Below are positions 5,802-33,587 of a stretch of DNA of 33,950 bases, in pieces. This DNA comes from Symbiobacterium sp. (GTDB taxonomy: Bacteria > Bacillota > Sulfobacillia > DUSP01 > DYEP01): contig DYEP01000170.1 in the NCBI GenBank assembly GCA_020725675.1, forward strand, positions 1-33,950. The letters run 5' to 3'. A model generated the notes under the pieces. It was not told the DNA's origin, searched no databases, and was given only the letters and a program-made list of their open reading frames with translations. The stretch's first letter is position 1; each line of letters begins with the position of its first letter. Made by a program: the position numbers and the translations under genes.

Positions 5802-7115
5802 ATGAGGGGCGTCGTGTTTGCTGGCCTTTGCCCTCACCCCCCGATTATGATACCGGAAATCGGGGGTGCGGAGGTAAAGAAGGTATCAAAGACCGTGGCA
5901 GCCATGGAGCACTTGGCCCAGTCGGTTCTTCGGCTGGCACCTGATGTCATACTCATGGTTTCGCCCCACGCCAGGATCGGAATGAATGAGATGACCTTAC
6001 TGGACGCTTCCTCAGTTAGCGGAGATCTGGCTCGCTTCGGACGACCGGATATAAGAGTAGAACGTGCTGTTTGCAGAGATACTCTTGACATTGTGGAGGA
6101 AGCGGCTAAAAGAGCGGGAATAGGAGTCGCCAGGGCGCCTCAAGGTGAGGGTGCGCTTGATCACGGGTTCCTCGTCCCCCTCTATTTCCTCGATAGGGCC
6201 GGGATAAGTGCGCCTTTGGTATGTTTTTCGATGTCACTTCTGCCCCAAGAACATCAGGTGCGCTTCGGGAGGCTATTAGGGGAGGCATTGGACAGCCTGG
6301 ATACCTGTTCTGCGTTTCTTGCATCAGGCGACCTCTCTCACCGGCTCACGAAGCATGCGCCGGCAGGGTACAGCCCCAAAGGACGTGAGTTTGACGAGTA
6401 CGTCGTTGGCGCGCTGGAGCGGATGGATCTCGATTCGCTGCTTGACATTGATCCGGGGCTCGTCGAGGCGGCTGGAGAGTGCGGGTTGAGACCTTTATCC
6501 ATGCTGGCGGGATTGTGTGCAGCAACGGGGCTGAGTCTTGACCGCCTGAGCTACGAGGGCCCGTTCGGCGTGGGGTACGCAGTAGCTTCTTTCCAAAAGG
6601 CCGACCCACTTGTCGCTCTGGCAAAAAGATCGCTTGAAACCTACATCAGGGATGGCCGTCGGGTGGCATTGCCAAAGACCGGGCTCCCTGACACAAAAGC
6701 AGGGGTGTTTGTATCGCTCAAAGTGGGGGGCGAGCTGCGTGGTTGCATCGGTACGTTTGCGCCTACGCGTCCTAGCATTGCAGAGGAGATCAGGGAGATG
6801 GCCATCGCTGCAGGGACGCAGGACCCGAGGTTTCCCCCTGTCAACGAGGATGAGCTGGAGACACTGTCATATTCTGTAGACGTGATTTCGCCTCCGGAAG
6901 CCGTCGATGACGAGACTGCCCTGGACCCCAAAGTGTATGGGGTGATCGTAGAAAAAGGGCAAAGACGGGGACTTCTGCTGCCGGACCTTGAAGGAGTGAA
7001 TACGGTCGCTGAACAGCTTTTCATCGCCAAGCGCAAAGCAGGGATTAACCCATCTGATCATGATGTGCGGCTTTACAGGTTTAGGGTGGAGCGGCATAGG
7101 GAGGGAGCGCGATAA
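5802..7115 (+). CDS. MEMO1-AMMECR1 fusion (AmmeMemoRadiSam proteins B and A in one chain)
   Basis: The 437-residue protein joins two domains usually found as separate AmmeMemoRadiSam genes. Residues 1-265 resemble the MEMO1 / class III extradiol dioxygenase (LigB) fold, with candidate metal ligands H12 (CPHPP), H56 (SPHAR), H121 (LDHGF) and the D177-L-S-H180 motif. Residues 268-437 are an AMMECR1 domain with its hallmark LRGCIGT at 312-318. The biochemical function of both families is unsettled. The radical SAM partner follows at once, its apparent start overlapping this stop. A GAGGTGGTGAAGAA leader precedes the ATG. Placement between orr and argF, in the same tight run, suggests co-expression with ornithine metabolism, which is inference only. 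Confidence 0.9.
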   Translation: MRGVVFAGLCPHPPIMIPEIGGAEVKKVSKTVAAMEHLAQSVLRLAPDVILMVSPHARIGMNEMTLLDASSVSGDLARFGRPDIRVERAVCRDTLDIVEEAAKRAGIGVARAPQGEGALDHGFLVPLYFLDRAGISAPLVCFSMSLLPQEHQVRFGRLLGEALDSLDTCSAFLASGDLSHRLTKHAPAGYSPKGREFDEYVVGALERMDLDSLLDIDPGLVEAAGECGLRPLSMLAGLCAATGLSLDRLSYEGPFGVGYAVASFQKADPLVALAKRSLETYIRDGRRVALPKTGLPDTKAGVFVSLKVGGELRGCIGTFAPTRPSIAEEIREMAIAAGTQDPRFPPVNEDELETLSYSVDVISPPEAVDDETALDPKVYGVIVEKGQRRGLLLPDLEGVNTVAEQLFIAKRKAGINPSDHDVRLYRFRVERHREGAR

Positions 7116-8116
7116 AGGAGGCACTTTACTGGGAAAAGCGCAAAGAGGGCGTGCAGTGCAACCTCTGTCCTCAGGGCTGCTTCATAAAACCGGGCCGGAC
7201 GGGGGTCTGCCGCGTCAGGAAGAACATTGACCAGACACTTTATGCCACAAATTACGGACAGGTTTCTTCTTTGGCTGTCGACCCGATTGAGAAGAAACCC
7301 CTGTACCACTTTTACCCTGGAACCACTATTCTGTCTGCAGGGACCGTTGGGTGTAACCTGTCCTGCGGGTTTTGCCAAAACTGGCAAATTTCACAGGCCG
7401 AGGCAGACACGCGCTACATTTCTCCATCTGCCATGGCAGAGCTGGCACTGGAGCAGAAGAGAAAGAATGCGCGCATGATAGGTATCGCATATACCTACTC
7501 GGAGCCGCTCATGTGGTACGAGTGGGTGCTGGACGCCTCAAGGGAGGCAAAGGAGCGGGGGCTTTTCAATGTTCTGGTAACCAACGGCTACATCAGACCT
7601 GGACCCCTTTCCGATCTGGCACAGGAGATCGATGCGGCCAACGTTGACCTCAAGGCATTCAGCGATGAATTCTATCGGCGAACGTGCGGTGGGCGGCTCG
7701 GACCGGTTATGGACACTATAGGACTATTAGTTGAGAAAGGAGTGCATGTGGAAGTCACTACTCTGCTCATCGCCGGAGAGAACGACGAAGAGGAGGAGAT
7801 CGCGGGAATCGCCAGGTGGCTGTCTGAGCTTGATCCGGCCATCCCGTACCACATATCAAGGTATTTCCCCAATTATAAGTACACCAAGGCTCCGACGCCC
7901 ACCGAGACGTTGCTCAAGGCGTACGATATCGCCAGGGAGCACCTTTCTTACGTCTACCTTGGGAACATTGGGGGAGGACAGTGGTCGGATACACTCTGCC
8001 CGCGTTGCAACCACACGGTGGTAGCCCGTTATCCTGTTCTCTCTATCCGTCTGGAAAAGGGCAAGTGCCCTGACTGCGGAGAACACATTCCGATTAAACA
8101 CCGATTGGAGGAATGA
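7112..8116 (+). CDS. AmmeMemoRadiSam system radical SAM enzyme
   Basis: The radical SAM cluster motif CNLSCGFC (CxxxCxxC) is present, preceded by a cysteine-rich N-terminus (CNLCPQGC) and followed by a C-terminal zinc-ribbon-like segment (CPRC ... CPDC). This is the third component of the AmmeMemoRadiSam set, distantly related to pyruvate formate-lyase-activating enzymes; its substrate is unknown. An automatic start would be GTG at 7151, but family members begin with a stretch like MKEALYYEK. Exactly that stretch (KEALYWEK) is encoded in frame just upstream, after an ATA codon at 7112 that lies 7 nt behind a GGAGG and overlaps the preceding TAA. I therefore place the start at ATA 7112, with GTG 7151 as the fallback. 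The end overlaps the argF region by ATGA. Confidence 0.9.
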   Translation: MKEALYWEKRKEGVQCNLCPQGCFIKPGRTGVCRVRKNIDQTLYATNYGQVSSLAVDPIEKKPLYHFYPGTTILSAGTVGCNLSCGFCQNWQISQAEADTRYISPSAMAELALEQKRKNARMIGIAYTYSEPLMWYEWVLDASREAKERGLFNVLVTNGYIRPGPLSDLAQEIDAANVDLKAFSDEFYRRTCGGRLGPVMDTIGLLVEKGVHVEVTTLLIAGENDEEEEIAGIARWLSELDPAIPYHISRYFPNYKYTKAPTPTETLLKAYDIAREHLSYVYLGNIGGGQWSDTLCPRCNHTVVARYPVLSIRLEKGKCPDCGEHIPIKHRLEE

Positions 8117-8121
8117 TGCAC

Positions 8122-9054
8122 ATGGCTGTAAACATGAAAGGCAAGGACCTGGTATCAGTACATGACCTGACAACAGAGGAAGTCTACCAGATCTTAAGGA
8201 CTGCTGAGTACGTAAAAATGATGAACAAGACCGGCTCGAGGTTTCAGCCGCTTTCTGGCAAGACCCTCGGCATGATCTTCACCAAGCCTTCCACCAGGAC
8301 ACGGATATCCTTTGAGGTGGCGATATATGAACTGGGCGGGTATGGCTTGTTCCTGAGCGCCAACGAGCTTCAGCTGCGGCGCGGTGAGACCATCGCCGAT
8401 ACCGCACGTGTGCTGTCAAGATACATACACGGGATCATGATCCGCACCTTTGATCACAAAGACGTGGTTGAGCTCGCGCACTACGCTACCATCCCCGTGA
8501 TCAACGGGCTGACGGACCTGCTCCACCCGTGCCAGGCACTGGCTGATATCTTTACCATCTATGAGAAAAAAGGTCGGCTCGATGGCATTAAACTCGCCTA
8601 CATCGGTGACGGCAATAACGTTGCCCATTCTCTGATGTACGCAGGGGCGAAGGTGGGCATGAAGGTCACAGTGGTCACGCCTGAGGGCTATGAACCCAAC
8701 CCCGAAGTGGTGAATACTGCCCGGGAAGATGCCGCAGCTACCGGAGCGGAGATCATACTAACGAATGATCCAAAAGAGGGAGTCCGCGATGCGGACGTAG
8801 TCTACACGGATGTGTGGACCAGCATGGGCCAGGAAAAGGAGCATGATGAGCGGGTTGCCGCGCTCACGCCCTACCAGGTGAACCCGTCACTCCTTGCGCA
8901 CGCGAAGCAGGACGTCATTTTCATGCACTGCCTGCCCGCCCACAGGGGTGAAGAAGTCGTGGATGAAGTGATTGATAGCCCGCGTTCTGTCGTGTGGGAC
9001 GAGGCGGAGAACCGGTTGCATGTACAAAAGGCCATTCTTGCGTTGGTCATGTAG
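8122..9054 (+). CDS. argF: Ornithine carbamoyltransferase
   Basis: This 310-residue protein has all the transcarbamylase landmarks: the carbamoyl-phosphate site STRTR, the HPCQALAD segment and the ornithine-loop cysteine motif HCLPAHRGEE. It converts L-ornithine and carbamoyl phosphate to citrulline, or the reverse in catabolism. Three in-frame ATGs lie at 8113, 8116 and 8122. The GGAGG at 8107-8111 is best spaced for 8122, but 8116 is possible. It lies in the run that begins with ornithine fermentation genes, whereas argG and argH are 23 kb away with their own promoter. It could serve biosynthesis or act as a catabolic outlet; the sequence alone does not decide. Confidence 0.96.
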   Translation: MAVNMKGKDLVSVHDLTTEEVYQILRTAEYVKMMNKTGSRFQPLSGKTLGMIFTKPSTRTRISFEVAIYELGGYGLFLSANELQLRRGETIADTARVLSRYIHGIMIRTFDHKDVVELAHYATIPVINGLTDLLHPCQALADIFTIYEKKGRLDGIKLAYIGDGNNVAHSLMYAGAKVGMKVTVVTPEGYEPNPEVVNTAREDAAATGAEIILTNDPKEGVRDADVVYTDVWTSMGQEKEHDERVAALTPYQVNPSLLAHAKQDVIFMHCLPAHRGEEVVDEVIDSPRSVVWDEAENRLHVQKAILALVM

Positions 9055-9089
9055 GCAGATACTCCAGTAAACAAGGGAGAGGAAGCGCT

Positions 9090-10403
9090 GTGAAGAGAAC
9101 CAAGGTAATCATTATGGGAGCGGCCGGCAGGGACTTCCACAACTTCAACACGTACTTCAGGAGAAGTGAAAACTACGAGGTAGTGTGTTTTACGGCCACA
9201 CAGATCCCGGATATCGAGGGGAGGGTGTATCCGGCTGAGCTTGCGGGGGACCTATATCCAAATGGGATACCCATTTACCCAGAAGAAGAACTGACGAGTT
9301 TGATTGAGAAGTATGGCGTGGACCAGGTGGTATTTGCTTACAGCGACGTACCCCATGAATATGTCATGCACAAGGCCTCGCAGGTGCACGCAGCTGGCGC
9401 CGACTTCAGGCTGCTTGGACCCAAGTCTACCATGTTGAAATCTTCAAAACCTGTAGTAGCTGTGTGCGCCGTACGTACAGGCGCAGGCAAGTCGCAGACT
9501 ACAAGGAAGGTCTGCGAGGTCCTCCGGAACATGGGGAAGAAAGTGGTCGCTGTACGGCACCCCATGCCTTACGGGGATCTGAGAAAACAGGTGTGCCAAC
9601 GGTTTGCCACGTATGCTGACCTGGATTTCCATCAGTGCACCATTGAAGAGCGGGAAGAATATGAGCCCCACATCGACATGGGCACGGTAGTATACGCTGG
9701 GGTCGATTACGAAGTCATCCTGAGAGAGGCTGAAAAAGAAGCGGACGTGGTTGTGTGGGACGGCGGAAACAACGACTTCTCCTTCTATGTGGCCGACATC
9801 TACATCGTTGTTGCTGACCCTCACCGGCCGGGACATGAGCTACGTTACCATCCGGGAGAGACCAACGCCCGCCTTGCAGACGTGGTAATTATGAACAAGA
9901 TGGAGACAGCGACCCCTGAGGGAATATCTCAAGTGAGACGCAACGTGGAGGCGGTAAACCCCGATGTGATCTGGATCGACGCGGTATCTCCGCTTACGGT
10001 TGACGATCCGAATGCCGTCAGAGGAAAACGTGTACTCGTTATCGAAGACGGGCCCACCCTCACCCACGGCGAGATGACGTACGGAGCGGGCATTGTGGCG
10101 GCACGGAAATTCGGCGCTGCCCAGATCATTGACCCAAGGCCGTACGCTGTAGGAAGCATTCGCGACACGTATGCGAAGTATACCCATATCGGTACGCTGC
10201 TGCCTGCCATGGGCTATGGAGAGCGGCAGGTCAGAGAACTGGAGCAGACCATCAATGCGGCCGATTGCGACTTAGTGATAGCAGCTACGCCTATTGACCT
10301 CCGTAGAATCATGAAGATCAACAAACCCGCTGTCCGGGTCCGCTACTCCTTGCAGGAGATCGGGCGTCCCACACTCGCGGACGTGCTCGAGAAACTGAGA
10401 TAA
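9090..10403 (+). CDS. Predicted P-loop GTPase, COG2403 / cyclic 2,3-diphosphoglycerate synthetase-like (copy 1)
   Basis: The protein has 437 residues from the GTG at 9090, which has a GGGAGAGGAAG site in front. An N-terminal Rossmann-like segment (VIIMGAAGRDFHNFN) is followed by a Walker A loop TGAGKS at residues 130-135 and a VVWDGGNND segment. Such proteins are catalogued as predicted GTPases or as relatives of archaeal cyclic 2,3-diphosphoglycerate synthetase; no bacterial function is established that I can name. It lies 35 nt after argF and is the last gene before a strong hairpin, so it belongs to the ornithine transcript. A paralogue sits at 12303-13706, with near-identical blocks such as TIEEREEYEPHID and DGPTLTHGEM. 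Confidence 0.75.
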   Translation: MKRTKVIIMGAAGRDFHNFNTYFRRSENYEVVCFTATQIPDIEGRVYPAELAGDLYPNGIPIYPEEELTSLIEKYGVDQVVFAYSDVPHEYVMHKASQVHAAGADFRLLGPKSTMLKSSKPVVAVCAVRTGAGKSQTTRKVCEVLRNMGKKVVAVRHPMPYGDLRKQVCQRFATYADLDFHQCTIEEREEYEPHIDMGTVVYAGVDYEVILREAEKEADVVVWDGGNNDFSFYVADIYIVVADPHRPGHELRYHPGETNARLADVVIMNKMETATPEGISQVRRNVEAVNPDVIWIDAVSPLTVDDPNAVRGKRVLVIEDGPTLTHGEMTYGAGIVAARKFGAAQIIDPRPYAVGSIRDTYAKYTHIGTLLPAMGYGERQVRELEQTINAADCDLVIAATPIDLRRIMKINKPAVRVRYSLQEIGRPTLADVLEKLR

Positions 10404-10632: not shown

Positions 10633-12264
10633 TTGACGCTCAGCCAGTGGATCTATTTTGGTGCTTGCGCAGTTTATATAGGGTTTTTTCTTCTGTTTTT
10701 ACGGTTCTTTTATTGGAAGTACTATTCAACCAAACACTACTGGTCACGCCGTCCTCCGCTATCAGATGAACTTGGAGCTGACGCACCGTTCTTTTCTTTA
10801 ATCGTTCCTGCGAGAGAGGAGGCGGACGTGATCGCCCGGACCATCCGGCACCTGGCTGCGCTGGACTATCCAAATGAACGCTATGAGATTATTGTCGCCT
10901 CAGATGAAAAGGAACAGCGGAACGCAGACAGGATCCGGATACACGCTGTACAAGAGTGCGAGTCCGCCCTCATTACAGGCGACATGCAAGCGGCCGGGCT
11001 GAGCGTGTATGCACGTCAGATGCTCAGCCGTCTTCTCACACAGGAGGCTGAATCTCATGGGCTGCATACCCGTGACGACAAGAAAGGGACTGCTCTGTTT
11101 GCTGGGCTCGGGTACGGCGAAACCAGAAGGATAATCAACTACTGCCTCATTGATTTCAGTCTTCGAGACAGACTGATGTTGCTTGCCAGGACGCTCCGTC
11201 CGACGACCCAGGAAGTAGTGGAAAAGACCCTGTCTACACCGGGCAGTGACACGCCCAGGGTGGTACATATATCGGTGCCGTGCGACTTCGATGGACTCTA
11301 CCCCGGCCAGTGCGTGGGTGAAGATGTCCAGTCCACAAAAGGTCGGGCCTTAAACCGGGCGTTATCCGCTCTCAGCCCGCACACTGAAATGGTAGGGTTC
11401 TTCGATGCCGAAAGCAGACCCGATCCGGCAGTCTTGAGGTATGTGGCATACCGACTGAGGTCGGCAAGCCCGCCTTACATCCTCCAGGGTCCCGTTTTTC
11501 AGGTCAGGAACTACTTCTCCATCAACCCGCTGTGCCGTATCGCAGCGCTTTATCAGGCGGTGTCTCATGACTGGTACCTTCCCTACCTGTTTCGGACGCT
11601 TCCTTTTGTGGGTGGGACCAACCTGTTCATCTCCCGCAACTTGCTCGTTGCCTCTGGCGGATTTGATAAATGCATCCTTACCGAAGACCTCGAGTACGGG
11701 GTCAGAGCATACTTAATCTGGGATGCATGGCCCGAGTATCTACCGTACCCGTCCAGCGAACAGACTCCGCCCACTATAACGGCATTCTTCAGGCAACGGA
11801 TGCGATGGGGTACGGGGCACCTGCAGGTAATGAAAAAGGTATCTGGGATGACAGACGTAGATTCATGGAAGCGAAAAGTTCTCTTAAGAAGGCTCCTTTT
11901 GAAAGGGCAGGCAGAATGGATCATGTACCAAATAGCCACGCTGGTGCCTCCTACCATGATTGTGCTCTGGCATCTGGGCTTGGTTGATCCTTCAGCAGCG
12001 CCAGTCACACTCCGTTACATGCTGCACGCCATCACGTTAACCTACTTTGGTTTCACTTTTTACATCTTTAAAAGATATTCCAGTTATATCGATAAGCATA
12101 CGGCGCCCAGGACTGCGTTGGGATGGTGCATGGCATACCTTGGTCTGCTACTGCTTCCTCTTGCCGCATTTCTCTTTCCATTTCCTTATACTGCTGCGCT
12201 CTTACGTTATTCGCTGACTGAGCGCCCCATGTGCTGGACAAAGACGCCGCGGACTAGGGAATGA
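10633..12264 (+). CDS. Membrane-bound family 2 glycosyltransferase with a large insertion
   Basis: This 543-residue protein has an N-terminal membrane helix (about 8-28), a GT2 catalytic domain and three or so C-terminal helices (about 427-450, 462-480 and 497-520), an architecture like processive synthases. GT2 landmarks are FFSLIVPAREE at 53-63, the DxD-like D258-A-E, the T350-E-D352 acid and QRMRW at 388-392. Between the first nucleotide-binding aspartate (D91) and the TKGRALNRAL segment (235-244) lie roughly 110 extra, mostly helical residues not usual for the family. The start is TTG at 10633 after a purine-rich leader. Its stop overlaps an alternative ATG of the next gene. Donor and acceptor sugars cannot be inferred; the flanking COG2403 pair hints at a shared pathway. 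Confidence 0.85.
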   Translation: MTLSQWIYFGACAVYIGFFLLFLRFFYWKYYSTKHYWSRRPPLSDELGADAPFFSLIVPAREEADVIARTIRHLAALDYPNERYEIIVASDEKEQRNADRIRIHAVQECESALITGDMQAAGLSVYARQMLSRLLTQEAESHGLHTRDDKKGTALFAGLGYGETRRIINYCLIDFSLRDRLMLLARTLRPTTQEVVEKTLSTPGSDTPRVVHISVPCDFDGLYPGQCVGEDVQSTKGRALNRALSALSPHTEMVGFFDAESRPDPAVLRYVAYRLRSASPPYILQGPVFQVRNYFSINPLCRIAALYQAVSHDWYLPYLFRTLPFVGGTNLFISRNLLVASGGFDKCILTEDLEYGVRAYLIWDAWPEYLPYPSSEQTPPTITAFFRQRMRWGTGHLQVMKKVSGMTDVDSWKRKVLLRRLLLKGQAEWIMYQIATLVPPTMIVLWHLGLVDPSAAPVTLRYMLHAITLTYFGFTFYIFKRYSSYIDKHTAPRTALGWCMAYLGLLLLPLAAFLFPFPYTAALLRYSLTERPMCWTKTPRTRE

Positions 12265-12302
12265 ACATTTCAGGCACAATATTGCCAGGGAGGGATGTTC
12301 CA

Positions 12303-13706
12303 TTGCCAAAAAGGATTGTCATAATGGGAGCCGCAGGCAGGGATTTCCACAATTTTAATGTCTATTTCAGGCATAACCCGGAGTATCAGGTAGTGGCGTT
12401 CACCGCTACGCAGATCCCCGACATCTCGGGACGATTGTACCCGCCAGAACTCGCCGGTCCCAACTACCCTGAGGGAATCCCAATATATCCTGAGGAAGAA
12501 CTCGAAGCGCTCATTAGGAACGCCAGGATCGACCAGGTGGTATTCGCTTACAGTGACGTGTCGCACCAGTACGTGATGCACAAGGCGTCAGTAGCGCTAT
12601 CATGCGGCGCTGATTTTGTTCTGATGGGTCCTCGGGCCACGATGCTGGAATCAACCAAACCGGTGGTGGCTGTCGTGGCCGTGAGGACAGGTGTGGGGAA
12701 GAGCCAAACTACGAGACGGGTCTCTGACATCATCAGGAGTCTTGGGCTCTCTCTGTGTGTGGTAAGGCATCCTATGCCTTACGGCGATCTAACCCAGCAG
12801 ACCGTACAGCGTTTTGCAGCATATGAAGATCTGGACAAACACAGGTGTACAATAGAAGAGAGGGAGGAATACGAACCGCACATAGACCGTGGGAATGTGG
12901 TATACGCGGGTGTGGACTACGAGCGCATCCTGAGGGAGGCCGAGAGGGAGGCGGACGTAATCCTGTGGGACGGAGGCAACAATGACATGCCCTTTTACAA
13001 GCCGGACATCAATATCGTCCTGGTTGATCCCCACAGGCCTGGTCATGAACTCATGTACCACCCGGGTGAAACCAACTTGCGCGCTGCGGATTGTGTGGTA
13101 ATAAACAAGGTAGATACCGCAGACGGGGACGACGTGGAGAAGGTGAGAGATAGTGTACATGAGATAAACCCGAGAGCGGTGGTGATCGAGGCCGCCTCGC
13201 CTATCTTTGTAGAGGATCCTGCCCAGGTCAGGGGCAAGAGGGTGCTGGTGGTTGAGGACGGACCGACCCTCACTCATGGTGAGATGAGCTATGGTGCGGG
13301 GATAATTGCAGCCAGGAAGTTCGGCGCGGCGGAGATCATCGATCCCAGGGAGGCCGCGACGCCCGGGATCAGGGCCGTGTACGACAAGTACCCACACATA
13401 GGCCCATTGCTGCCGGCGATGGGTTATGGACAGAGCCAGATCGCAGAACTGAAAGAAACCATAAACGCAGTGGACTGTGATACAGTGATCATCGCTACCC
13501 CTATAGACTTAAGGAGGGTGGCAGCCTTTGTGCATCCGGCGGTACGTGTGAGATACGAGCTGCAGGAGATAGGCAAACCCGATCTTGTTGACGTGATTTC
13601 ACCGATTTTGTCCAGGTACGCCAGGCACAAGCAGGAATTTGTAACCGTATCGCCCAATTACCTACTGAATCGACCCGCCGCGGAATATGGAGTATCAGGG
13701 ACATAG
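12303..13706 (+). CDS. Predicted P-loop GTPase, COG2403 / cyclic 2,3-diphosphoglycerate synthetase-like (copy 2)
   Basis: The 467-residue paralogue of the 9090-10403 product is highly similar along its length, with a C-terminal extension of about 30 residues. Walker A is TGVGKS at 129-134, and the N-terminal IVIMGAAGRDFHNFN block is shared. I chose TTG 12303, which follows GGGAGGG at 12288-12294 with good spacing and gives an N-terminus aligned with copy 1. An ATG at 12261 in frame overlaps the stop of the glycosyltransferase and would add 14 residues. The gene is followed after 28 nt by a cation transporter. Having two diverged copies argues for two related substrates or a heteromer, which is inference. 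Confidence 0.75.
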   Translation: MPKRIVIMGAAGRDFHNFNVYFRHNPEYQVVAFTATQIPDISGRLYPPELAGPNYPEGIPIYPEEELEALIRNARIDQVVFAYSDVSHQYVMHKASVALSCGADFVLMGPRATMLESTKPVVAVVAVRTGVGKSQTTRRVSDIIRSLGLSLCVVRHPMPYGDLTQQTVQRFAAYEDLDKHRCTIEEREEYEPHIDRGNVVYAGVDYERILREAEREADVILWDGGNNDMPFYKPDINIVLVDPHRPGHELMYHPGETNLRAADCVVINKVDTADGDDVEKVRDSVHEINPRAVVIEAASPIFVEDPAQVRGKRVLVVEDGPTLTHGEMSYGAGIIAARKFGAAEIIDPREAATPGIRAVYDKYPHIGPLLPAMGYGQSQIAELKETINAVDCDTVIIATPIDLRRVAAFVHPAVRVRYELQEIGKPDLVDVISPILSRYARHKQEFVTVSPNYLLNRPAAEYGVSGT

Positions 13707-26305: not shown

Positions 26306-26475
26306 CGATTCCACCTCCTGAAATACTGTTAAATTATGCGCAACAGCGGGGAAACCTATTCCTCCAGCACTATGCATGATGCTCCTGCCCCCACGTTCAT
26401 TCCTGATAGAAGGTATGAAGGTTGAAGAAGCGAAGTATGGAATGAGTAGTGCCAGTAAAGAAAGAGGTGTGGGCG

Positions 26476-27462
26476 TTGATAAAGCCTCCGCTGGTCCTGA
26501 TGTTCTCTGTAGATGTTTCAGGAAAGATGCGCCGATCGCTCGTTAATTGTCTGGCTCACAGCTTTTGTGTTAAGACCCGGCAGGTGGACCTAGCGGTGTT
26601 TGCTGGACATGACGTAATACGGGGAACCCAACTGCTTGAGGAACTATGCTTCATGTTGGGCCCGTCAGCAATGGAATCTGATGGGCCAAAATACCTTCTG
26701 ATTACCCGCCGTCATCTTGTTGACAGCTGCGAAAATAGGCTGTACGGCCTGTCTGAACTGGGAGGTAACGTTGGGGTTGTGAGTGTCGCAGGGCTTGATT
26801 TCAGGGAGGCCTGCGCTGAGTGTTGGCATGAAGTAGGGCACCTGTGGGGGCTTGATCACTGCCCAGATCCTATCTGCGCCATGGCCTTTTCTTCCGGTAA
26901 AGCTGGACTGTCACAAAAAGCCGGACGCCTCTGCAGAGCGTGCATGAATGAGCTGAAGTTCTTCATGGAGCCGGAGGGCGCAGTTGGAGTGAGCAGATGT
27001 CTGCTTGGAGACAATTGCAGATTTGACGGGAAGAACTGCAAGGATCAGGATGTACTGAAGTATATAGAAGGGAAGAGTGTGGTAGGCATCTGTCCGGAGG
27101 AAATGGGGGGACTGAGCACTCCGAGGGAACGCTCGGAAATTGTTTCGGAGCATCCGGTACGGGTGGAGACTACAACAGGAAAAGACGTGACGGAAGCATT
27201 CAACCAAGGGGCGCTAGCTGCGCTTGACACGCTTATTAGCGCGGGCATAAGACGCTGCATTCTGAAGGAGGGCAGCCCGTCCTGCGGCAGCAGATTGATA
27301 CATTCAGGGAAATTTGACGGAAGACGTATACCAGGCAGAGGACTGACCACAAGGTTGCTGGACGAACGTGGGATTGCAGTTGTGAGCGAAGAGGCGGTTC
27401 GGAGGAGGGGTTACCTTGGCATCGAACAGACAAAGAATAAGCGACCTGAAGATCGGGGATAA
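26476..27462 (+). CDS. Archaemetzincin-like protease fused to a DUF523/TudS-type desulfurase domain
   Basis: The single frame of about 328 residues holds two unrelated domains. Residues 1-165 resemble archaemetzincin: the zinc motif is H118-E-x2-H122-x5-H128 followed by C129 and C134, then CRAC (C153, C156), the extended zinc signature of that family. Residues 171-310 are a DUF523/TudS-like domain with C175 and C181 (CLLGDNCRFDG), CPEEMGGLSTPR and C270 (EGSPSCGS), the three cysteines expected to hold a [4Fe-4S] cluster in thiouracil desulfurases. No stop or frameshift separates them. TTG 26476 follows GAGGTG well; GTG 26449 is the longest start. The 3' end overlaps the exonuclease gene by 47 nt. 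The joint role is unknown. Confidence 0.82.
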   Translation: MIKPPLVLMFSVDVSGKMRRSLVNCLAHSFCVKTRQVDLAVFAGHDVIRGTQLLEELCFMLGPSAMESDGPKYLLITRRHLVDSCENRLYGLSELGGNVGVVSVAGLDFREACAECWHEVGHLWGLDHCPDPICAMAFSSGKAGLSQKAGRLCRACMNELKFFMEPEGAVGVSRCLLGDNCRFDGKNCKDQDVLKYIEGKSVVGICPEEMGGLSTPRERSEIVSEHPVRVETTTGKDVTEAFNQGALAALDTLISAGIRRCILKEGSPSCGSRLIHSGKFDGRRIPGRGLTTRLLDERGIAVVSEEAVRRRGYLGIEQTKNKRPEDRG

Positions 27463-28411
27463 GGTGCGTTCGACTTTCGCTGTAAGCCATATCAATCTTG
27501 CCCCCTACAATACATCAAGTCGTGCGGGAGAGTATTATCTCAGATTAGTGCTAATGGATGCTTCGGGGTCCGTGGAGGCGAGGCTATGGGATGGTGCCCA
27601 GGAGGCCTACAGGCAGCTGTCTGTAGATGACTATGTGTATGTCGAGGGGCAGGTTGTAGGGTTTCGGGGACTGCAGCTGAACATCTCTTCGTTCAGAAAG
27701 CAGGCACCGGAGGAAGTGGATCTGGCGGAGTTTCAACCGTGCTCGTCAGTGCCTGCGGACGCACTCCTTCACGACTTTCTGACTTGCGCAAAGTCCGTGG
27801 AGGACCCTCACCTGGCTGCGCTGCTTGGGGCATTCGCCAATGACGATTCGTTCATAAACCTTCTCCTCCGGGCACCGGGCGGAAGACTTGTACACCACGC
27901 GTACTCGGGCGGCTTGCTTGAGCATACACTCGAAGTGGTGGGCATTGCACGTACTCTCAGCCGGCTATATCCATCTATCGCTGACCCTGACCTTTTGTTG
28001 ACCTGCGCCCTTCTTCACGATATAGGGAAGGTGAAAGAGTATAACGTGTTTTCACCATCCTTTAACCTGACAGACGCTGGTCGGCTGCTCGGCCACATTG
28101 TACTGGGGCACAGCATGGTATTGGAAAAGATTGAGAGGATAGCCGGTTTTCCGCCCGTTCTGAAAATCGAAGTAGAGCACGCAATCCTAACCCACCATGG
28201 TCAGAGGGAGTGGGGTTCCCCGGAAGTGCCCAAGACCGCCACCGCCTTTTTAGTGTTTCACGCGGACCTCGTCAGTGCTCGCTGCAACCAGTTCTCTGCT
28301 CTGATTTCGGGGCATTCGTCAGACAGCCCGTGGACCCAATACGATAAATACCTGGAAAGGCATATCTTCATTCCCTCGCTGGTAAGAGGGTCTGAAAATT
28401 GGGGGGATTGA
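27416..28411 (+). CDS. YhaM-like 3'-5' exoribonuclease (OB fold plus HD domain)
   Basis: This 331-residue protein has an N-terminal OB-fold nucleic-acid-binding domain (about 1-100) and a C-terminal HD domain. Metal ligands are in LLEHTLEV and CALLHDIGK, with ILTHHG and FHADLVSARC further on. This layout is that of YhaM, an Mn2+-dependent 3'-5' exonuclease acting on RNA and single-stranded DNA. The TTG start at 27416 is well placed behind AGGAGGGG, inside the 3' end of the preceding fusion gene, so the two are translationally coupled. It is 165 nt from the next gene, with a promoter-like region between. Confidence 0.88.
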   Translation: MASNRQRISDLKIGDKVRSTFAVSHINLAPYNTSSRAGEYYLRLVLMDASGSVEARLWDGAQEAYRQLSVDDYVYVEGQVVGFRGLQLNISSFRKQAPEEVDLAEFQPCSSVPADALLHDFLTCAKSVEDPHLAALLGAFANDDSFINLLLRAPGGRLVHHAYSGGLLEHTLEVVGIARTLSRLYPSIADPDLLLTCALLHDIGKVKEYNVFSPSFNLTDAGRLLGHIVLGHSMVLEKIERIAGFPPVLKIEVEHAILTHHGQREWGSPEVPKTATAFLVFHADLVSARCNQFSALISGHSSDSPWTQYDKYLERHIFIPSLVRGSENWGD

Positions 28412-28575: not shown

Positions 28576-30210
28576 ATGATTAGCCGCAAATGGCTCCTTC
28601 CAGTGGTACTGATGGTCACCCTGGCGATGCTCCTGAGCGCCTGCGGGCAAAAACCTGCGACGCCACCTGCGCCGGAAAAGCCGGCGGACGTTGCGGAAGA
28701 GAAGAAACCGTCGGGAATAGTCAGGGTGGGCTCCATCGGTGACGCCCAGAACCTGATTCCCATCCTCGTGACCGATTCGGCCTCTCAAGACATAGTCTAC
28801 TGGCTGTTTTCGTATCTTCTGAGGACGGATAGCAGGACACTGGAACCCACTCCGGAAATTGCCGAAAAATGGGATATCTCTTCCGATAACCTAGTTTACA
28901 CCTTCTATCTGAACAAAAATGCCAAGTGGTCTGATGGTAAACCCATCACCGCAAAAGACGTGGCGTTTACCATCGAAGCAGTTTGCCATCCTGAATCTCC
29001 AAGCGACTGGTTCTCTGACTTCTCCCGCATCAAGGGAGCGAGGGCCTTTAAGGATGGCAAGGCGGACAAGATCGAAGGTATAAAGATTATTGACGATCAT
29101 ACCATTGAAATCACACTTGAGGAGGTCTACGCTCCGTTCATACTAAGCATGGCATTTGCACCTATGCCTGCTCACGTGTATGAAGGCGCGTCCATCAAAG
29201 ACCTGAAGACCCACCCGCAGAACTCCAAGCCCACAGTGACAAGCGGACCGTTTGTACTTGAGGAGTGGGCGAGGGACCAGTACATTATGGTCAAGGCAAA
29301 CCCCAACTTCTGGGGAGAAGGACCGGGTCTTGAGCGCATCATCTATCGGATCATCCCTGATCAGACTGCAGAGGTCATCGAGCTTCGTACAGGGGGCCTT
29401 GACCTGATTCCCACTGCTGTGAAGATTGAAGAAGTGCCTGAGCTGCAAAAGAGCCCGTTACTCGAGGTCGTTACCAACAAGCGGCTTGTATATGACTATA
29501 TCGGTTTCAATATGAAGAAGGAAGGTCCGCTCAAGGACAAGAGAGTTCGTCAGGCGCTGACCATGGTATTCGATCCGACGCCCCTTGTCCGTGACGTGCT
29601 GAAGGGCTACGGCGTTGTGGTTAACGGGCCACTTCCTCCGCTCTCCTGGGCGTTTGACCCAGACCTAAAGAGGCTACAGGGAACCGTTGAAGAAGCCAAG
29701 GCGCTGCTTGCCCAGGCCGGATATCCGAACGGCTTCAAGATGACCCTCTACACCAACGAGGGGAACGAAGTACGCGAGAACGCAGGTCTGCTCTTTAAAG
29801 AGGCTGTGGCGAAACTTGGCGTCGAGGTGGAGTTCCAGCCAATGGAGTGGGGAGCGTTCCTCCAAGTACTGATGGCGCCGGAGCCTACCTACGATGCTAT
29901 GGTGCTCGGTGTTGGAACAGGCGTAGACCCCGACCTGGAGTATTCCTGGCACAGCAAGAGTGCAGGCAACAGGTACGGTTACTCCAACCCCGAGGTTGAC
30001 GCGCTAATTGAAGAAGGTCTGCGTGTGACGGACTTGGCCAAGCGTAAAGAGATCTATCAAAAAGCACAAAGAATTCTTGTGGATGATGCACCGTTCATCT
30101 TCCTGTATGTACGCGAGGCGTTGCACGCAAAGAACAAGAACTTCCAGGGATTTGACCCGCATCCCAGCACACCAATGTACAGGGTTGACAGGTGGTACAG
30201 AGTGGACTGA
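28576..30210 (+). CDS. Peptide/nickel-type ABC transporter substrate-binding lipoprotein (SBP family 5)
   Basis: This 544-residue protein has a lipoprotein signal: a KW-rich start, a hydrophobic core and the lipobox LLSAC, with the cysteine near residue 23. The mature part matches family-5 binding proteins (ITAKDVAFTIEA; GPFVLEEWARD; NPNFWGEGPGLERI; LKDKRVRQALTMVFDP). These proteins catch oligopeptides, nickel complexes or related solutes outside the membrane; the ligand is not deducible. The ATG has a GGGGGT site. It is followed by a strong hairpin and then the two permeases, an order that often gives excess binding protein. Confidence 0.93.
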   Translation: MISRKWLLPVVLMVTLAMLLSACGQKPATPPAPEKPADVAEEKKPSGIVRVGSIGDAQNLIPILVTDSASQDIVYWLFSYLLRTDSRTLEPTPEIAEKWDISSDNLVYTFYLNKNAKWSDGKPITAKDVAFTIEAVCHPESPSDWFSDFSRIKGARAFKDGKADKIEGIKIIDDHTIEITLEEVYAPFILSMAFAPMPAHVYEGASIKDLKTHPQNSKPTVTSGPFVLEEWARDQYIMVKANPNFWGEGPGLERIIYRIIPDQTAEVIELRTGGLDLIPTAVKIEEVPELQKSPLLEVVTNKRLVYDYIGFNMKKEGPLKDKRVRQALTMVFDPTPLVRDVLKGYGVVVNGPLPPLSWAFDPDLKRLQGTVEEAKALLAQAGYPNGFKMTLYTNEGNEVRENAGLLFKEAVAKLGVEVEFQPMEWGAFLQVLMAPEPTYDAMVLGVGTGVDPDLEYSWHSKSAGNRYGYSNPEVDALIEEGLRVTDLAKRKEIYQKAQRILVDDAPFIFLYVREALHAKNKNFQGFDPHPSTPMYRVDRWYRVD

Positions 30211-30223
30211 GCGGAAGCTCATT

Positions 30224-30270
30224 TGGGTTTGTGTGGCTCATCCGGGGCCACACAAACCCATTTTGCTGTT
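30224..30270 (+). terminator. Strong intercistronic hairpin between binding protein and permeases
   Basis: A 14-bp perfect stem (arms 30224-30237 and 30247-30260) with a 9-nt loop is followed by TTTTGCTGTTT. It lies 14 nt after the lipoprotein stop and probably causes partial termination, lowering permease expression relative to the binding protein, or protects the upstream mRNA 3' end. Confidence 0.85.
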
Positions 30271-30311
30271 TGGCCAGCCATGGCAAATAATGGCAAAGGG
30301 AGTGGCGGCTT

Positions 30312-31265
30312 TTGAGGAAGTATCTTGTGCGTCGTGTGCTGCAGGCTGTACCCATCTTGTTAGGCATTACGCTAATTTCCTTCTTCATCATTCACCTCGC
30401 GCCGGGCGATCCTCTGGCCATGGATATTGAAGGTACAAAGATCAGCCCGGAAGCCATACAAATACGTCGGGAGCAGATGAACCTCGACAAGCCTATTCCC
30501 GTACAGTATTGGATCTGGATCAAAGGCTTACTAAGAGGTGACTTTGGTTGGTCATTTCAGGACGGCCGTCCGATTGTTGAACATCTGAAGGAGCGCATAC
30601 CTATCACCCTGCTCATTATGGGCATTCCCATGTTTATAGCGGTCCTGGTGTCCATACCGCTGGGAATCGTCTCTGCCACGCGGCAGTATTCTCTAGCGGA
30701 CCAGTGTGCTACGGTGTTTGCATTCCTCGGCATATCTATTCCAAACTTCTGGTTTGGCATCGTTTTGATGATGATCTTTTCATTGTGGCTCGGATGGCTG
30801 CCCGCGACCGGGCTTAAGACCATCGGGGCGCCCTTTTCCATTGCCGATCGTGCCAAGTACCTGGTCATGCCTACAATAGTGCTGGCTACAGGCCAGATGG
30901 CGAGTCTGGTCCGGTATGTCAGGTCCAGCATGCTCGAAGTCATTAGGCAGGACTACGTCAGGACAGCGCGGGCCAAGGGCGTGTCTGAACGGCTCGTCAT
31001 ATACAAGCACGCGCTCAAGAATGCCATGATTCCAGTTGTGACCATCCTTGCTCTGATGATGCCGGGACTCCTGGGCGGTGCGTTGATGACAGAAAACGTA
31101 TTTGCACTCCCGGGGATGGGTAGATGGACTGTCCGGGCGGTGTTTTATCGTGACTATCCCGCCGTCATGGCCTCGCTCACTGTAAGCTCTGTCATGATTG
31201 TTGCGTTCAACCTGATTGCAGATATTCTCTACGGATTTCTCGACCCCAGGATAAAGTATGACTGA
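30312..31265 (+). CDS. Peptide-type ABC transporter permease, DppB/OppB-like
   Basis: This 317-residue protein has six membrane helices. It starts RKYLVRRVLQAVPILLGITLISFFIIHLAPGDP, typical of DppB-type permeases. The cytoplasmic EAA coupling loop is visible as DYVRTARAKGVSERLVIYKHALKNAMIPVV. The C-terminus is the usual LDPRIKY. It partners the permease at 31296 and the lipoprotein upstream. The start is TTG at 30312 behind AAGGGAG. No nucleotide-binding subunit follows. Confidence 0.92.
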   Translation: MRKYLVRRVLQAVPILLGITLISFFIIHLAPGDPLAMDIEGTKISPEAIQIRREQMNLDKPIPVQYWIWIKGLLRGDFGWSFQDGRPIVEHLKERIPITLLIMGIPMFIAVLVSIPLGIVSATRQYSLADQCATVFAFLGISIPNFWFGIVLMMIFSLWLGWLPATGLKTIGAPFSIADRAKYLVMPTIVLATGQMASLVRYVRSSMLEVIRQDYVRTARAKGVSERLVIYKHALKNAMIPVVTILALMMPGLLGGALMTENVFALPGMGRWTVRAVFYRDYPAVMASLTVSSVMIVAFNLIADILYGFLDPRIKYD

Positions 31266-31295
31266 CAAGTCCCGCCGGGAAGGAGTGAGTTCTTG

Positions 31296-32192
31296 ATGGA
31301 GAGACAAAAGTCGGCCTCAACAAACGTGGGGTATGAGCAGACCGTAGAGATAGAGTCCTTCTTAAAGATCGTTTTACGAAGGTTCAAGAAAAACAGGCTT
31401 GCGATGCTAGGAGCCTTTGTGGTCGTTTTTCTTTACCTGGTGGCAGTATTTGCGCCCTTTATTGCCACACACGACCCGAACGCGACGAATACCATTATGA
31501 GGCTGAAACCTCCAAGCAGGGACAACTACTTTGGCACAGACAGGCTTGGGCGAGACATTTTCAGCAGGGTGGTGTATGGCTCACGCATTTCTCTATCAGT
31601 GGGGCTTGTTGCTGTGGGCATTGCAGTTACCATCGGCACGCTCATAGGGTCGGTTTCCGGCTACTACGGCGGTACTGTGGACAACGTGCTCATGCGGTTT
31701 ACTGACATTATGATGTCCATTCCCACGCTCTTTCTTGTCATCACCATAGTTGCGATGTTCGGTGGCAACATCTGGTACACCATGCTGGCCATAGGCCTTA
31801 CGGGCTGGACGGGTGTGGCTCGCCTCGTTCGCGGGTCCTTTCTCTCACTGAAGGAGCAGGAGTTTGCGGAGGCGTGCAGGGCGATCGGTGCCAGTGACTT
31901 CCGCATCATGTTCAGGCACCTTCTACCCAACGCCATGGCGCCCATCATCGTAGCGGCTACCCTGGGTGTAGCCAGCGCTATCCTGACTGAGACTTCTCTC
32001 AGCTACCTCGGTCTTGGAGTGCAGCCTCCCACACCCACATGGGGGAACATTTTGCGCGAAGGTTATCAGTATATCAAGTACGCATGGTGGTACGGCACAT
32101 TCCCGGGTGTTGCCATTTTCATCACTATGATGGCTTTTAACATGCTGGGCGACGGACTGAGAGACGCGCTTGACCCAAGATTGAAAGAATAA
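31296..32192 (+). CDS. Peptide-type ABC transporter permease, DppC/OppC-like
   Basis: This 298-residue protein matches DppC: a charged N-terminus, a first membrane helix, then HDPNATN and FGTDRLGRDIFSRVVYGSR. The EAA loop is EFAEACRAIGASDFRIMFRHLLPNAMAPI, and it ends LGDGLRDALDPRLKE. It forms the membrane channel with the DppB-like protein. ATG 31296 and TTG 31293 are adjacent alternatives behind AAGGAG. The gene is followed by a terminator and then argG, so the two ATPase subunits must come from elsewhere. Confidence 0.92.
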   Translation: MERQKSASTNVGYEQTVEIESFLKIVLRRFKKNRLAMLGAFVVVFLYLVAVFAPFIATHDPNATNTIMRLKPPSRDNYFGTDRLGRDIFSRVVYGSRISLSVGLVAVGIAVTIGTLIGSVSGYYGGTVDNVLMRFTDIMMSIPTLFLVITIVAMFGGNIWYTMLAIGLTGWTGVARLVRGSFLSLKEQEFAEACRAIGASDFRIMFRHLLPNAMAPIIVAATLGVASAILTETSLSYLGLGVQPPTPTWGNILREGYQYIKYAWWYGTFPGVAIFITMMAFNMLGDGLRDALDPRLKE

Positions 32193-32312: not shown

Positions 32313-32354
32313 ATGTACTATCACTCATCCAACACAAAAAGAGGAGGCCGCATC

Positions 32355-33587
32355 ATGGGTAAGGTCGTCTTAGCGTATTCGGGAGGACTTGATACGTCTG
32401 TCTGTATCAAGTGGCTCGAGGATAAGTATGGGATGGAAGTCATCGCGCTCACTGCAGATGTCGGTGAGGGCAAAGACCTTGAGCTGATCAGGCAGAAAGC
32501 GCTGCAGGTGGGGGCTACCAGGTGCCACGTGGTAGACGCCAAGGCCGAGCTGGCGAAGAACTATATAGCTCCCAGCCTAAAGGCCAACGCGCTATACCAA
32601 AATGTGTATCCGCTTGCTTCAGCTCTGTCAAGGCCTCTGATCTCCAGGCTCCTCGTCCAGGTGGCTGAAATGGAAGGCGCCTCCGCTGTTGCGCACGGGT
32701 GCACAGGCAAGGGCAACGACCAGGTGCGATTCGACGTTTCGGTATCAGCGCTCAACCCAAGGCTGAAGGTGATCGCTCCCGTGCGGGAATGGCCCATGTC
32801 CAGGGAGGAAGAAATAGAGTATGCTCGCGAAAAGGGAATTCCCGTACCGGTTGGGAAGAAGAATCCGTACAGCATTGACGAGAACTTATGGGGACGGAGT
32901 ATAGAGTGCGGAGTCCTTGAGGACCCGTGGACTGAGCCCCCGTCCGAAGTATACAAGTGGACTGTGGACGTGGATAAGGCACCGGATACTCCAGAGTATA
33001 TCGAGATCGGATTTGAGAAAGGGCTACCCGTCAGCTTGAACGGCGAGCCTTACGACCTTGTAGACCTTATCTCGGAGCTGCAGGCGATTGGCGGAGCGCA
33101 CGGCGTAGGACGCATTGATCACATTGAAGACCGCCTGGTTGGGATAAAGTCCAGGGAAGTATATGAGGCTCCGGCTGCCACCATTCTCATTAATGCGCAT
33201 AAACAGCTGGAGAATTTCACACTGCCCAGAGAAGTACTTCAGTTCAAGCCCGCGGTGGAGCAGAAATTCTCAGAACTCGTTTACTTCGGCCTGTGGTATT
33301 CCCCGTTGAAACAGGCCATTGACGCGTTCATCGACTCCACACAGCAGGTCGTGACTGGTACTATCCGAGTGAAGCTATTCAAGGGTACGTGCACGGTGGT
33401 GGGCCGCAAGTCGCCTTATGCGATGTATAACCTGTCGCTAGCTACTTACGACAAGCACGATGTGTTTGATCATAAAGCTGCCAAAGGGTTCATTGACCTG
33501 TGGGGGCTTCCTACGAAGGTATTCGCTTCGATACATGACAATAAGGGGAAAATGAGCAACGAAATGCAGATCGCGGGAGGTAAGTAG
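32355..33587 (+). CDS. argG: Argininosuccinate synthase
   Basis: This 410-residue protein, the usual length, begins [16 protein letters not shown] with the ATP-pyrophosphatase SGGLDTS loop. Further family marks are [31 protein letters not shown] and the C-terminal [16 protein letters not shown]. It joins citrulline and aspartate with ATP to form argininosuccinate in arginine synthesis. The ATG has GAGGAGG 7 nt upstream. Its own promoter and ARG-like box separate it from the transporter operon. argH starts 2 nt after its stop, so the two are co-transcribed. Confidence 0.98.

Follow-up and report, generated by a model that had tools for sequence, protein, structure and literature searches.

In this work, we have combined sequence, synteny and structure comparisons to analyse a gene of Symbiobacterium sp. 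in which an archaemetzincin zinc-peptidase domain and a TudS (DUF523) desulfidase domain are joined in one chain; the whole 33,950-nucleotide stretch of contig DYEP01000170.1 that carries it is called here the window. Judged from its sequence, this is a genuine domain combination in one bacterial gene, so far a single case. We consider it probable that the product is a TudS-type thio-nucleotide desulfidase that gained, in this lineage, an intact N-terminal zinc-peptidase domain within an RNA-turnover locus. The fusion would be an addition to the TudS family, with an unexplained protease half, placed in an old RNA-turnover setting. An archaemetzincin fused to an enzyme of known chemistry, and lying beside an RNA-degrading enzyme, offers a concrete place to seek the role of these proteins, and the fusion extends the short list of TudS-joined domains, of which DUF1722 is the sole characterised partner.

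The fusion gene and its two domains

The fusion frame runs without interruption from 26476 to 27462 on the forward strand and codes for 328 residues from a TTG start at 26476, from which all residues are numbered here. An alternative GTG start at 26449 would give 337 residues; the ribosome-binding site AGAGGTG, located 6 bases upstream of the TTG, is better than that at the GTG. The gene is present in a single copy in its genome, and about five residues link the two domains. The sequence-only reading had named both domains, and had seen a complete archaemetzincin zinc signature and the three TudS cysteines in one frame. Both names hold, since each half exceeds its Pfam gathering score, matches a solved structure by sequence and is recovered by fold, and every one of those residues has been located and aligned to PDB 2x7m or 6z92. 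The worry that one half might find no match in a domain search is thereby removed.

Archaemetzincins occur widely in archaea and have been conserved in mammals. The archaemetzincin (M54) domain of the fusion comprises residues 1–162 (26476–26961), and its match to Peptidase_M54 is far from chance level (PF07998, E = 2.7e-9, 37.7 bits, gathering cut-off 24.4), with further sequence matches to the solved archaemetzincins 2x7m (3e-10) and 3zvs (3.7e-7). The zinc signature, HEVGHLWGLDHC-x4-CAM-x16-CRAC, lies at residues 118–156 (26827–26943), which show the pattern HExxHxxGxxHCx4CxM...CxxC as H118-E119-x2-H122-x2-G125-x2-H128-C129-x4-C134-x-M136-x16-C153-x2-C156 and align with 2x7m ungapped throughout; the predicted parts are the catalytic zinc site, the Met-turn and a Cys4 structural zinc site. 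With AmzA of Archaeoglobus fulgidus and Methanopyrus kandleri the domain has in common the complete zinc signature, the Cys4 site and the fold, but it shares about 30% identity or less, belongs to a short divergent subtype of a few Bacillota genomes, and has TudS attached. It reaches 58.1 bits with the NCBIfam archaemetzincin model NF033823, below the cut-off of 145. In the archaemetzincin tree it groups with the short Bacillota forms (G402, G536, G019 and G039), apart from the canonical clade to which the G013 protein belongs, and this apparent position rests on a long branch (3.67 changes per site). Regarding activity, no proteolysis was detectable with the M. kandleri enzyme (PMC3427221), and the archaeal AMZ-tk cleaves casein (PMC4681839). 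The archaemetzincin CarG of Myxococcus is non-catalytic and acts in regulation (PMC3427221). Its family of non-proteolytic proteins, Myxo_non_zincin, is matched by the fusion only weakly (NF033824, 32.4 of 250 bits), and the catalytic Glu is replaced in CarG whereas the fusion retains E119, which sets it apart from the CarG type.

The TudS domain, a predicted [4Fe-4S] desulfidase, extends over approximately residues 168–312 (26977–27411). Its match to 2-thiour_desulf is likewise far from chance level (PF04463, E = 2.3e-40, 138.3 bits, cut-off 34.7), and it matches PDB 6z92 at 2.3e-26. In the 6z92 alignment, residues C175, C206, E208, S267, S269 and C270 (26998–27285) correspond to Cys10, Cys43, Glu45, Ser101, Ser103 and Cys104 of TudS_A, that is, to the three cluster ligands and the catalytic Glu and Ser residues, whose roles were described together with the activity on 4-thio-UMP and the [4Fe-4S] cluster (PMC10611767). 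The fusion therefore shares the whole domain, the three cluster cysteines, the Glu and the two Ser with the thiouracil and 4-thio-UMP desulfidases, and differs from them in its N-terminal archaemetzincin domain and its divergent branch (1.03 changes per site in the TudS tree). Since all the known catalytic residues are retained in both halves despite these long branches, their conservation implies selection on both active sites. Single-domain proteins make up 58.9% of TudS architectures and DUF1722 fusions another 40.1%, which leaves about 1% for all the others (PMC11417400). In RudS, a tRNA s4U desulfidase, the accessory DUF1722 domain shifts the TudS substrate from nucleotide to tRNA (PMC11417400). 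Our fusion resembles RudS in that TudS is joined to a second domain, but the partner is an N-terminal zinc-peptidase domain and the Pfam search gave no DUF1722 match, so it is not a RudS.

The structure prediction that had been proposed for the domain contact was run with AlphaFold2 on an alignment of 20 sequences, and gave a model with a mean pLDDT of 83.4 and a pTM of 0.80; the latter, covering both domains, suggests that they stand in a defined relative placement. A Foldseek search with this model retrieved TudS structures first (6z92, 1.3e-11) and then archaemetzincins (3zvs, 3.7e-10, TM 0.79 by target length), in accordance with the archaemetzincin fold.

Genomic context and origin of the fusion

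The gene downstream, at 27416–28411 on the same strand, codes for a YhaM-like 3'-5' exoribonuclease with an OB fold (PF01336, 4.5e-7) and an HD domain (PF01966, 1.8e-15). It has this architecture in common with YhaM, but scores 133.7 of 460 bits (7e-39) with the YhaM equivalog NF010007 of NCBIfam, below the cut-off. Its frame, read from TTG 27416 with GGAGG upstream, shares its first 47 bases with the end of the fusion gene. A TudS-YhaM neighbourhood exists in two related genomes as well, which strengthens the suspected link to a YhaM-like nuclease. Of about 25 relatives that have both genes, however, only 3 show this adjacency. Three genes of a DppABC-type peptide ABC transporter, named by inspection, follow on the forward strand at 28576–32192 (28576–30210, 30312–31265 and 31293–32192), and then argG (32313–33587, forward strand), identified by tblastn with identities of 70% and 58–64% to the copies of G001 and G016 and serving as the synteny anchor common to the three genomes.

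The order in the window is thus fusion-YhaM-DppABC-ArgG. In G001, a genome of the same order, a stand-alone TudS gene, YhaM and ArgG lie on one strand; in G016, YhaM and ArgG lie on one strand and TudS is divergent beside YhaM. No archaemetzincin lies beside the stand-alone TudS at these positional counterparts, and none was found in G001 or G002, the other genomes of the same order that were searched. From this synteny the fused gene occupies the slot of a stand-alone TudS, and the finding argues for a domain acquisition in a single lineage and not for a conserved fusion. The orthology of the fused TudS and the G001 TudS is drawn from position only, since the TudS tree does not group them. 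The most likely origin, as far as these comparisons indicate, is that the TudS of an old RNA-turnover locus acquired a divergent archaemetzincin domain at its N-terminus.

A second genome of the same class, G013, carries a TudS gene directly followed, on the same strand, by a canonical archaemetzincin gene, as separate genes. Descent of the fusion from such a pair was rejected, because the archaemetzincins of the two genomes fall into separate clades and TudS comes first in the pair but second in the fusion. The earlier doubt, that the halves might be separate genes elsewhere and a stop codon lost only here, was half right: the counterparts are indeed stand-alone TudS genes, but a simple lost stop codon does not explain the fusion, as G013, the sole genome with both genes adjacent, has them in the opposite order.

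Distribution of the two domains

The rarity supposed in the sequence-only reading was sustained. TudS was surveyed in 151 genomes (its own and 150 relatives) and matched in 55, its own included, and no archaemetzincin-TudS fusion was found in any of the 150 relatives. Archaemetzincin was present in 4 of the 151 genomes of the class, the window's genome included, and the phylum sample gave 4 of 398, with a single one below the family cut-off. In a wider scan seeded by an alignment of three archaemetzincins, TudS was found near the archaemetzincin neither in 80 loci from many phyla (flanks of up to 6 kb) nor in 30 further loci (flanks of about 1.5 kb), 110 loci in total. Collections of plasmids and phages yielded their best matches to the TudS half, with 0 records covering 80% of the query, and a pattern search of genome and viral contigs with the full fusion gave no relatives. 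Our literature search found no paper pairing the terms archaemetzincin and DUF523. The search for the same fusion elsewhere thus yielded none, and the one adjacent pair of separate genes in G013. This was the only such pair among the 80 and 30 loci and the few genomes of the class that carry an archaemetzincin, and a conserved archaemetzincin-TudS gene pair was discarded. By our own estimate, TudS would adjoin any one gene in about 1 of 1,250 cases when a genome has about 2,500 genes; the single case among about 115 archaemetzincin loci compares with about 0.1 expected at most, which is suggestive, not overwhelming.

Other neighbourhoods were noted in these surveys. In Hydrothermota, a canonical archaemetzincin gene overlaps a YhaM-like gene by 4 bases (L080, 3839–5358); it was the sole case, absent from 29 other loci of the phylum, and an archaemetzincin-YhaM pair as a general rule was rejected. 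In four Bathyarchaeota loci (L077, L085, L086 and L110) the archaemetzincin adjoins a beta-CASP ribonuclease-type gene. A Bacillota locus (L051, 114–1229) codes for an archaemetzincin-like protein of 371 residues in which HExxH has apparently been lost and the later cysteines remain; its gene precedes one for a DnaB-type helicase. TudS-like genes of a divergent clade occur on viral contigs of IMG/VR (L142–L149), and in phage records too. What looked like TudS read-throughs in further genomes (e.g. G026) turned out to be TudS-HTH_1 fusions; four members of the same class code for TudS with a C-terminal LysR/ModE-type HTH_1 domain (L032, 2381–3211; L038, 2050–2847; L039, 2554–3366; L037, 839–1954), and these proteins could be sulfur-sensing regulators.

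Proposed function and alternatives

We propose that the TudS half, like TudS_A, would use a [4Fe-4S] cluster to take the sulfur off 4-thio-UMP or 4-thiouracil. The thio-nucleotides would be supplied by tRNA breakdown through 3'-5' exonucleases, the coupled YhaM-like enzyme being one of this kind, and the 4-thiouridine in tRNA would be made by the ThiI of the cell. A full-length ThiI is encoded in the genome, so 4-thiouridine is probably available. In G016, a ThiI-like PP-loop protein with an NFACT-R RNA-binding domain is encoded directly after TudS (L008, 1953–2945), which points to thiolated tRNA. More tentatively, the archaemetzincin half may be a folded peptidase domain, loaded with zinc, competent in catalysis and held rigidly against TudS; it would act most likely on proteins or peptides tied to this RNA turnover, or assist in positioning the substrate. 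The case for a desulfidase with an added peptidase domain is made by the profile matches, the sequence matches to solved structures, the fold and the kept residues, together with synteny, ThiI, the ThiI-like neighbour of TudS in G016, the known TudS activity on 4-thio-UMP and the G013 pair. Against it stand the single fusion, the positional orthology, the NF033823 score below the cut-off and the long branch of the archaemetzincin half, the infrequent TudS-YhaM adjacency, the unconserved L080 pair and the M. kandleri enzyme with its lack of detectable proteolysis.

The main rival to the peptidase reading is that the archaemetzincin domain does not cut, and that by analogy with DUF1722 in RudS it would be a zinc-bound docking or specificity module steering TudS to a larger substrate, a tRNA or an RNA-bound complex. 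RudS itself shows that TudS can gain a substrate-changing accessory domain, and CarG that an archaemetzincin can be non-catalytic and regulatory; the very short linker and the pTM of the two-domain model are consistent with a fixed arrangement, and TudS is also fused to the DNA-binding HTH_1. Yet the fusion, unlike CarG with its replaced Glu, retains the catalytic Glu119 along with all three His ligands and the Met-turn, and we know of no RNA-binding function of archaemetzincins, so we hold such a role to be possible but rather unlikely. Somewhat more doubtful is a bifunctional enzyme whose peptidase and desulfidase would jointly serve one process in thiolated-RNA turnover; if true, this would give the first functional handle on bacterial archaemetzincins, with support from the second, independent pair in G013.

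We find it improbable that the two domains were joined accidentally or neutrally, an assembly artefact included, with no joint function. The fusion is a single case in a draft assembly of 253 contigs, missing from close relatives and from the archaemetzincin loci surveyed, but no stop interrupts the frame at the junction, and a chimera joined in frame precisely where the domains meet is unlikely. In addition, the sequence on either side of the junction agrees with the genome in GC content and tetranucleotide make-up (sampled stretches of the same genome were the control, and windows below 1 kb were compared by fractions only), synteny shows the downstream side to be native, and catalytic residues are retained on both sides despite the long branches.

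Most improbable is a coupled enzyme whose halves share one substrate, a sulfur-bearing peptide or modified-amino-acid compound that one of them would cut and the other desulfurate: a single chain with two intact active sites and the transporter genes downstream of yhaM would fit it, but no thioamide, RiPP or similar genes were recognised within the window, the transporter is missing from the corresponding stretches of G001 and G016 and was rejected as a core feature, and to our knowledge TudS acts only on thiouracil-type substrates. The new function on a thiolated peptide that had been supposed is hence not borne out, the context giving no pointers to sulfur-carrying peptides and indicating thiolated-RNA turnover instead.

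Finally, AmmeMemoRadiSam-type radical SAM genes recur near archaemetzincins (L084, L092, L096, L106 and L065), and the window has such a gene together with a MEMO/AMMECR1-like gene at 5802–8116, far from the fusion. One gene cluster of the window codes for two similar nucleotide-binding proteins (8994–10403 and 12261–13706), possibly cyclic 2,3-diphosphoglycerate synthetase-like.
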